Under the pieces are notes generated by a model that saw only the letters and a program-made list of their open reading frames with translations, had not been told where the DNA came from and made no database searches. A stretch of DNA of 36,013 nt from Candidatus Hydrogenedentota bacterium (GTDB lineage: Bacteria; Hydrogenedentota; Hydrogenedentia; Hydrogenedentales; SLHB01), in NCBI GenBank assembly GCA_016215105.1, contig JACRLJ010000145.1, positions 2,782 to 38,794 of the forward strand, read 5' to 3'. Made by a program: the position numbers and the translations under genes. This document shows positions 15,402 through 17,787 of the stretch, piece by piece; position 1 is the first letter of the stretch, and every line of letters starts with the position of its first letter.

Positions 15402-15433
15402 TTGCTTTTTGCCGCATTTCGTGGCACTATAAT
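15402..15433 (+). promoter_or_regulatory. Promoter of the ZTP-riboswitch/purH transcript
   Basis: A perfect TATAAT is at 15428-15433. The best -35 is TTGCTT (15402-15407), 20 bp away, which is long. Transcription should begin near 15440, about ten bases before the P1 helix of the riboswitch, as expected for a leader riboswitch. Confidence 0.6.
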
Positions 15434-15449
15434 CGCGTCTTCATTAATG

Positions 15450-15530
15450 ACGCTGCCGTGACTGGCGACTTGGGCGTGGAATTGACCACGAGGAAGCGGT
15501 AGCGTTTAGGTCATGCCGATCGCCTGGGCG
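15450..15530 (+). promoter_or_regulatory. ZTP/ZMP riboswitch (pfl motif)
   Basis: The aptamer shows all main pfl features. P1 is ACGCTGCC (15450-15457) with GGTAGCGT (15498-15505), eight pairs including one G-T. The conserved GTGACTGGCGA follows P1 (15458-15468). P2 is CGTGG (15475-15479) with CCACG (15486-15490), then AGGAAGCGG. After a short linker the hallmark CCGATCGCCTGGGC (15516-15529) closes the aptamer and can pair with the early loop as a pseudoknot. The class binds ZMP/ZTP, purine intermediates that build up when 10-formyl-tetrahydrofolate is short, and turns on folate and purine genes. Here it precedes AICAR transformylase, the enzyme that consumes ZMP. The 130 nt to the start codon hold the expression platform; I see no T-run terminator, so control of translation or a factor-dependent stop is possible. 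Confidence 0.93.
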
Positions 15531-15659
15531 CTGAGTGCGGAGCAACGGATTCGCTGACGTTGGGCGCCAAAGAGCATCGCTTCTTCAATTCACGCGGCCT
15601 CCAACTCTACAAGATGTTTCTGTCGCTCTCAGATGTTCAACCAAGAAGGAGCACGAAGC

Positions 15660-16778
15660 ATGGCTGAAAAAGATCTCAAACAGATGTACCGGACCCAAAC
15701 CTTGGGTCACTTCCCCGACAGTATCGAGGTGATTGGGCGGCAGTACACCAAAGTCGAGGACCTCCGCTACGGCACGAATCCGCACCAGCCGGCGGCATTT
15801 TACCGCCCCGCCGACGGGCAACGCCTCGTGCTGGGCGCCTACGAACTCCTGAAGACCGGAAAGAGCGGCCTTTCCCAAACCAACATCGAGGACATGCACC
15901 ACGCTGTGGGCATCCTGAAGTATATGCAGCGGCCCGCCTGCGCCGTGATGAAGCACTGCAACCCGTCCGGCGCCGCCATCCAGACCGGCGCCGCGCCGCT
16001 CGTCGAGGTCTACCAACGCGCGCGCGACGCGGATGCGCAAGCCGCGTTTGGAAGTGTCGTCGTATTTAACGCCACCGTGGACGAGGATACGGCCACCGAA
16101 ATCATGCAGACCATTGTCGAGGGTGTCGCCGCCCCCGGCTACACACCAGCCGCGCTGGAAGCCTTGAGCAACTTCGAGCGCTTCAAGCGTAATCGGGACC
16201 TCCGTGTTATCAAGTTACCGGATTATTCGAGCTTGCCGAAGTTCATCGACGAAGGCGGCGAGTATCTGGAAATGAAAGTATTCGATGACGGAAGCCTGGT
16301 GCTCGCCGCGCCCTATCTGTCGCGCGTCAAAGGCGCGACGGACCTCATCCCGGCTTACAACGAACACAAGACCAAGGGCCGCATCGACATCGCCCGCAAA
16401 CCGACCACGCAGGAACTGGACGATCTGCTGTTCGCGTGGTACGTGAACATCCACGTCCGGTCGAACGGGTGCGTGATCGCCAGCAACGGGCAGACGCTCT
16501 GCGTCGGCACCGGCGAGCAGGATCGCGTCGGCGCCGTCCAGCAGGCCATCTTCAAGGCCAAGAATAAGTATAAGGGCACGGAATCGCTTGAAGGCGCGGT
16601 CATGTCGTCCGACGGGTTCTTCCCGTTCCGCGACGCCGTGGACGCCGCGACCAGCGAAGGGGTGAGCGCCATTGTTCAGCCCGGCGGCAGCGTCAACGAC
16701 TACGAGGCCATCGAAGCGTGCAACCAAGCTGGCGCCACGATGGTGTTCAGCTTGGAGCGGTGTTTCTCGCACCACTAG
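15660..16778 (+). CDS. purH: Stand-alone AICAR transformylase (PurH C-terminal domain only)
   Basis: A 372-residue protein starting at ATG 15660 behind AAGGAG. It covers only the formyltransferase half of PurH: RYGTNPHQ (36-43), KHCNPSGA (98-105, with the catalytic Lys-His pair), the AAFGSVV segment, RSNGCVIASNGQT, and SDGFFPFRDAV followed by AIVQPGGSVND. The MGS-like IMP cyclohydrolase domain of usual ~520-residue PurH is missing, and nothing upstream encodes it. The enzyme transfers formyl from 10-formyl-tetrahydrofolate to AICAR (ZMP) in purine synthesis; a separate IMP cyclohydrolase must lie elsewhere. The ZTP riboswitch in its leader senses the very substrate, so expression should rise when folate one-carbon units run short. 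Confidence 0.9.
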   Translation: MAEKDLKQMYRTQTLGHFPDSIEVIGRQYTKVEDLRYGTNPHQPAAFYRPADGQRLVLGAYELLKTGKSGLSQTNIEDMHHAVGILKYMQRPACAVMKHCNPSGAAIQTGAAPLVEVYQRARDADAQAAFGSVVVFNATVDEDTATEIMQTIVEGVAAPGYTPAALEALSNFERFKRNRDLRVIKLPDYSSLPKFIDEGGEYLEMKVFDDGSLVLAAPYLSRVKGATDLIPAYNEHKTKGRIDIARKPTTQELDDLLFAWYVNIHVRSNGCVIASNGQTLCVGTGEQDRVGAVQQAIFKAKNKYKGTESLEGAVMSSDGFFPFRDAVDAATSEGVSAIVQPGGSVNDYEAIEACNQAGATMVFSLERCFSHH

Positions 16779-17185: not shown

Positions 17186-17410
17186 ATGTTTACCCGCATC
17201 ACAATTGACCCAATGCAAATGGGCGGCGTGCCCTGCATCCGCGGATTGCGCATTCCCGTCGCCACAGTGGTAAGCATGGTTGCGGACGCGATGTCCGAAG
17301 ATGAAATCCTATCCGACTACCCCGATCTCGAGCGGGAAGATATCCGCGAGGCGCTGCGATACGCGGCTGAAGCCCTGCGCGAAAACACCCTACCTCTGGT
17401 GGCGGGGTGA
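17186..17410 (+). CDS. DUF433 antitoxin
   Basis: A 74-residue DUF433 protein behind GGAG. Family marks are all present: RITIDP near the start, GGVPCIRGLRIPVATVV (13-29), the helix-turn-helix-like segment MSEDEILSDYPDLEREDIREALRYAAE, and a short tail. DUF433 proteins are DNA-binding antitoxins paired with DUF5615 PIN-like toxins. The toxin gene follows with a 4-bp GTGA overlap, so the two are translationally coupled and likely autoregulated as a complex. Confidence 0.88.
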   Translation: MFTRITIDPMQMGGVPCIRGLRIPVATVVSMVADAMSEDEILSDYPDLEREDIREALRYAAEALRENTLPLVAG

Positions 17411-17787
17411 AGTTTCTGGTAGACAATGCATTGTCTACACGCGTCGCTGACGGTCTACGTGTCGCAGGTTATGATGCCGTCCACGTTCGGGCGTATAACC
17501 TTCACGCCGCGCCGGACGATCAAGTTCTTGAACGAGCCATTGCGGAGAATCGCGTCCTCCTCTCGGCTGATACTGATTTCGGTGCGATTTTGGCGGCCAC
17601 TCGGGAAGCAAGGCCGTCGGTGATCCTGTTCCGGAAGACTTCTGGACGACATGCCAACATGCAGGTGAGGCTTATCCTGGCTAATCTTGAAGCCGTCAAA
17701 GAAAAACTTGATAAAGGTTGCATTGTTGTTTTTGAAGACCAACGGATACGCGTACGAATGCTTCCTATAGGAGATATCGAGCCGTAG
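17407..17787 (+). CDS. DUF5615 PIN-like toxin
   Basis: A 126-residue protein starting at GTG 17407 within the antitoxin stop. It has the compact DUF5615 PIN-like pattern: MKFLVDNALS with Asp6, DAVHVRAYNL, and LLSADTDFGAIL with Asp56 and Asp58, then a SVILFR strand. These proteins keep the acidic nuclease site but are shorter than VapC. RNA cleavage is inferred from the PIN fold. Together with the DUF433 gene it forms an intact pair beside the decayed VapBC. Confidence 0.88.
   Translation: MKFLVDNALSTRVADGLRVAGYDAVHVRAYNLHAAPDDQVLERAIAENRVLLSADTDFGAILAATREARPSVILFRKTSGRHANMQVRLILANLEAVKEKLDKGCIVVFEDQRIRVRMLPIGDIEP

Follow-up and report, generated by a model that had tools for sequence, protein, structure and literature searches.

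A ZMP/ZTP riboswitch upstream of a stand-alone AICAR transformylase gene in Candidatus Hydrogenedentota

Results

The riboswitch and the gene behind it

The analysed stretch of 36,013 nucleotides (the window) contains a riboswitch aptamer followed by a gene for half of a PurH protein, both on the forward strand. The features of the locus are:

15428..15433 (+), possible -10 box TATAAT, proposed from reading the sequence
15448..15536 (+), ZMP/ZTP riboswitch aptamer (RF01750), covariance-model match
15521..15529 (+), CGCCTGGGC, conserved 3' core of the aptamer, comprising P3 and what we take to be the pseudoknot strand, placed by the RF01750 alignment
15531..15547 (+), possible 5' arm (CTGAGTGCGG...) of a post-aptamer hairpin, own-arm duplex -16.3 kcal/mol
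15616..15632 (+), possible 3' arm (...CTCAG) of this hairpin, closing 27 nt before the ATG
15647..15651 (+), Shine-Dalgarno sequence AGGAG, 8 nt 5' of the ATG, sequence reading
15660..16778 (+), stand-alone AICAR transformylase (PurH1), 372 aa, PF01808 match, start conserved in relatives

RF01750 (ZMP-ZTP) was the sole Rfam family that reached its gathering score in a cmscan search of the 36-kb window. The match at 15448-15536 (+) scored 64.4 bits (E 2.2e-8, gathering score 39) and is full-length, covering model positions 1-86 of 86, with the conserved segments GACTGGCG, GTGG..CCAC and CGCCTGGGC intact. The near-ideal pfl (ZTP) aptamer claimed in a preliminary description of this DNA, which had proposed the search with the Rfam model as a check, was thus recovered well above the gathering score. 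The score also ranks among the best of the 70 ZTP sites of the phylum, which argues that the aptamer has been kept by selection. The aptamer itself is real and ordinary and its target is sensible; from its riboswitch class it is expected to bind ZMP and ZTP.

The promoter that had been proposed was borne out in part: with the usual spacing of 7 bases from the TATAAT at 15428-15433, transcription is predicted to start about 8 bases 5' of the aptamer, but no -35 box passed the consensus scan. A GTGGCANNAT-like stretch is common to many purH1 leaders shortly 5' of the aptamer and is perhaps a lineage-specific -10 region.

The 372-aa reading frame matches PF01808 at profile positions 67-310 of 311 (E 6.5e-54) and aligns to solved PurH structures across the transformylase half. 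Residues R36, Y37, K98, H99 and R367 are invariant in 12 aligned relatives; the AICAR-contact positions were matched by eye on alignments, with the residue list taken from the available text of PMC3261824. The domain match and the contact residues together place the protein in the AICARFT domain family. The relatives obtained by protein search are 63-83% identical and mostly from Candidatus Hydrogenedentota. As had been claimed, the gene lacks the IMP cyclohydrolase domain: the PF01808 match begins only at profile position 67, and the N-terminal half, missing from the frame at 15660-16778, is located on another contig of the same genome. The models for bifunctional PurH cover only the C-terminal part and stay below their cut-offs (PRK00881, 267.9 against 402; TIGR00355, 220.6 against 528), as does the model for stand-alone AICARFT, PRK07106 (NF005492; 123.6 against 415). 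Since a ZTP riboswitch precedes a PurH that contains only the transformylase, the known ligand of the class supports the earlier proposal that the RNA would sense the substrate of the enzyme encoded downstream, and the observation of a riboswitch in front of a half-PurH is as a whole confirmed.

The ATG at 15660 is a more likely start of purH1 than the in-frame ATG at 15633, because the relatives share a MAEKDLKQMYRT-like start at the former position. By eye, a short upstream reading frame was noticed at 15614-15667, with a stop overlapping the purH1 start; it is probably due to chance.

PurH is split throughout the phylum

In 68 Candidatus Hydrogenedentota genomes, all belonging to one order, no PF01808 match spanned both halves of PurH. 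Each match fell in one half, the N-terminal one (profile about 1-62, at most 91) or the C-terminal one (starting at about 49). The PurH1 half was found in 57 of the 68 genomes and the PurH2 half in 55; 47 genomes contain both and three neither. In the genome of the window, PurH2 is a 206-aa reading frame just upstream of purD (contig C96, L002 1285-1905 (-)). With only the C-terminal half present, purH1 might be taken for a bifunctional purH that was truncated or wrongly assembled, but the same short form recurs in other members of the phylum and PurH2 is encoded separately, next to purD. This phylum-wide pattern of split genes refutes such an explanation, to which we give practically no credence.

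Relatives of this stand-alone PurH1 type are also present in Lentisphaerae, Armatimonadota, Spirochaetota and others. No ZTP riboswitch was detected near the related genes of other phyla, neither at the 37 loci nor elsewhere in the 37 genomes. The stand-alone arrangement, which had been singled out as noteworthy, is therefore real as far as the half-PurH is concerned, but it is phylum-wide rather than peculiar to this locus and occurs in other phyla without a ZTP site. In an Armatimonadota genome, a c-di-AMP riboswitch lies close to a related PurH1 locus (L153 2263-2397 (-)).

Two candidates for the cyclohydrolase step

The search for a separate IMP cyclohydrolase, which the preliminary description had recommended, returned two candidate genes and not one: PurH2 next to purD, and PurO. 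The PurO (PF07826) match of the window's genome scores 192.8 bits (contig C69, L202 2526-3176 (+)). The encoded protein of 216 aa passes the equivalog cut-off of TIGR01922 (209.3 against 158.35), and its alignment to solved PurO runs the length of the protein; as judged from its sequence, it is an archaeal-type IMP cyclohydrolase. PurO is present in 58 of the 68 genomes of the phylum, and PurH1, PurH2 and PurO occur together in 42 of them. Of the 37 genomes from outside the phylum that encode a related stand-alone PurH1, 33 contain PurO and two a convincing PurH2, with a third PurH2 match of 5e-4 in a 1055-aa frame.

According to the available text of PMC3261824, Lys66, Tyr104, Asp125 and Lys137 of human PurH are important for the cyclohydrolase. 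Tyr104 aligns to His110 of the PurH2 from the window's genome. In 39 PurH2 sequences, taken from the 55 phylum genomes that have the N-terminal half, this tyrosine is absent without exception (17 His, 12 Gln, 5 Arg, 3 Lys, 1 Asn, 1 Ala). Lys66 and Asp125 are retained in all 39 and Lys137 in 38, the remaining sequence reading X. The PurH2 from two genomes of other phyla, a control of only two sequences, retain the tyrosine, and these genomes gave no PurO match. The tyrosine is also missing in four phylum genomes without a PurO match (G007, G012, G016, G020), which are assemblies of 290 to 800 contigs.

ZTP riboswitch sites precede two kinds of gene in the phylum

The RF01750 search yielded 70 sites in 53 of 60 phylum genomes. 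According to tblastn, 48 of them precede gcvT and 20 an AICAR transformylase gene, while two lie at contig ends. Thus, gcvT is the main ZTP target in the phylum and the AICAR transformylase a minority target. The second ZTP site in the window's genome likewise precedes gcvT (L006 1501-1616 (-)). With the same aptamer class on purH1 and gcvT, the two genes form one small regulon across the phylum. The window gene belongs to purine and one-carbon folate metabolism, the field from which ZTP targets are drawn; published targets of the pfl class are purine and formyl-THF genes including purH, as stated in the available part of PMC2864571.

Fifty PurH1 genes were compared for ZTP sites, leaving out two fragments (G025:C558, G031:C500). 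A site lies directly upstream of 20 and is absent upstream of the other 30. One of the 20, at G016:C6 (L103, L037), precedes an AICAR transformylase of the PRK07106 type, unlike the other 19. The G016 genome also encodes the phylum's own PurH1 type, and the G016:C6 gene is possibly foreign, either from a contaminant contig or acquired by gene transfer.

Eleven related leaders contain a platform resembling a transcription attenuator

A terminator scan based on hairpins and T counts was noisy, and tests of complementarity and of arm swapping were used instead. In the complement test, which covered the 68 of 70 leaders with at least 60 bases downstream, 11 of 20 AICAR-transformylase leaders contain a downstream arm that can pair with the aptamer core CGCCTGGGC (p<=0.01 against shuffles), followed by 5-9 T within the next 12 bases; none of the 48 gcvT leaders contains such an arm. 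A hairpin is located directly behind the aptamer in the related leaders, and the invading anti-P3 arm sits in its loop. The arms of this hairpin covary: their own pairing amounts to -14.64 kcal/mol compared to -9.81 kcal/mol for permuted arms, and none of 5000 permutations was as good (n=19). The seven leaders outside the 12 used for the inner hairpin gave 30 of 5000 permutations, and the gcvT leaders (43 tested, 44 of 48 read in) gave 28 of 5000 with a far smaller shift. Since the segments for the swap test were picked after viewing the leaders, these counts are exploratory.

The platform of the 11 relatives looks like a transcription attenuator with a GCCCGGGCG-type arm able to invade the aptamer core. 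Invading helix and hairpin would compete for one arm, which is the layout of a switch. We favour the invading helix as the terminator, corresponding to an ON switch, which is the usual direction of ZTP switches in the available text of PMC9481103. The direction might also be reversed, at least in the leaders with a covarying hairpin: ligand binding would lock P3 and free the GCCCGGGCG arm, and the post-aptamer hairpin, with its CTG-TTTT end, would form and terminate transcription. The inner hairpin indeed abuts TTTTC in four of 12 leaders (G008, G019, G002, G023) and overlaps it in two (G015, G016), its flanks covary (6 of 5000 permutations), and ZTP OFF switches have been predicted earlier at moeA, again as far as the accessible text goes (PMC9481103). 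But the invading helix exceeds the hairpin in stability by a wide margin (-15 to -27 kcal/mol compared with about -1 to -13 kcal/mol), and T-rich sequence follows close behind it in G013, G022, G030 and G043. Moreover, the hairpin continues to pair beyond the T-run and is closed by CTG/CAG; such an extension is needless for a terminator but would be needed for an antiterminator, and it makes less sense to shut off an enzyme while its substrate piles up. We thus regard an OFF direction as unlikely and retain the ON direction.

The platform of the window's leader looks derived

The distance of 123 nt between the end of the aptamer and the ATG is the longest of 19 AICAR-transformylase leaders (others 48-94 nt). 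The scan detected no terminator-like site in the stretch separating aptamer and gene, there is no T-run, and an anti-P3 arm was absent in the complement test (p 0.70 against shuffles). The long platform without a T-run terminator described earlier is therefore present. It had also been put forward as deserving attention; it is indeed long and free of T-runs, but it looks derived, since 11 of the 20 leaders have a P3-invading arm and a T-rich stretch. A platform overlapping the aptamer, which is common in the RF01750 family but not obligatory, was not found in the window's leader.

CTGAG follows the aptamer and CTCAG stands 27 nt 5' of the ATG, at the positions where the hairpin is closed in the relatives (23-28 nt); the possible hairpin would carry about 70 extra loop bases. 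Its own-arm duplex of -16.3 kcal/mol was equalled by two of 36 swaps, and its pairing taken alone is within chance (reached by 106 and 136 of 1000 shuffles). The whole leader folds no better than shuffled sequences (z 0.47; other runs -0.54 to 1.62), with the aptamer pseudoknot lying outside the method.

It is quite possible, at slightly below even odds in our judgement, that about 70 nt were inserted into this leader and that a translational or Rho-dependent platform then took the place of the original one. The long insert lies in the hairpin loop while the spacing on the gene side is unchanged (27 nt), a hairpin is predicted over the Shine-Dalgarno sequence and the ATG, and a stretch with C over G extends from 15575 to 15634. 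Yet none of these features rises convincingly above shuffled or background sequence. Sequestration of the Shine-Dalgarno sequence by CTTCTT or by the hairpin covering the ATG is within chance, with 117 of 300 shuffles equally paired, and as a Rho site the C-over-G stretch reaches only the 95.5th percentile of the window. Since neither a terminator nor an anti-P3 arm is recognisable, the output might also be lost, leaving an intact aptamer in front of a decayed platform. The score of the aptamer speaks for selection and against such a loss, which we consider improbable. Overall, the interpretation in the preliminary description is partly supported.

Discussion

We consider it likely that the leader of the stand-alone AICAR transformylase gene contains a riboswitch for ZMP and ZTP, most likely one that raises expression of the gene. 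A shortage of 10-formyl-THF would cause ZMP, the substrate of the enzyme, and ZTP to accumulate; both would bind the aptamer, and expression of the enzyme would most likely go up. GcvT, encoded behind the same aptamer class, supplies one-carbon units to THF. Ligand and ON direction are deduced from the riboswitch class. In the window's leader, the signal might be relayed to the gene via translation or Rho, or control might be weakened.

The aptamer, the ligand class and purH as a target are already established, and the window shares the aptamer and a purH-type target with known pfl riboswitches (RF01750) upstream of purH. In many pfl RNAs, a platform arm overlaps the 3' part of the aptamer, as described in the available part of PMC2864571, and this is likewise the case in the relatives of the window's leader. 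In contrast to the known examples, the target in the window is only the transformylase half and its leader is without the arm, whereas the relatives add a covarying hairpin with the invading arm in its loop. Proteins of the PRK07106 type (NF005492) are, like the PurH1 of the window, AICAR transformylases without IMP cyclohydrolase, and the example at G016:C6 also has a ZTP site; however, the window protein is another stand-alone type, one that has no NCBIfam equivalog among the models compared.

The case is strongest outside the window, in the unusual last steps to IMP in this phylum. Combinations of PurH1, PurH2 and PurO in which an isolated PurH1 occurs with PurO or PurH2, as here, are described for Archaea in the available text of PMC3261824; here the host is a bacterial phylum, and all three genes occur together in most of the genomes. 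No published account of this arrangement was found in the literature searched, which excludes most subscription journals. We tentatively propose, with somewhat less than even confidence, that the final two reactions leading to IMP have been separated and in part replaced: PurH1 alone would be under ZTP control together with gcvT, PurO would close the ring, and PurH2 would be decayed in activity or have another role, with a two-hairpin platform whose direction is maybe reversed.

The split of PurH would let the cell subject the folate-using step by itself to control by the alarmone that signals a lack of folate. According to the accessible parts of two earlier studies, isolated PurH domains are frequent only in Archaea (PMC3261824), and PurO-like genes occur in 22 of 1266 bacteria (PMC6797443). 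A phylum with PurH1, PurO and a PurH2 without the tyrosine makes both statements worth revisiting.

Downstream of purH1, at 17190-17787 of the window, a reading frame with a DUF5615/PIN-like domain (17407-17787) lies directly behind a small reading frame. We take this arrangement to resemble a toxin-antitoxin pair.
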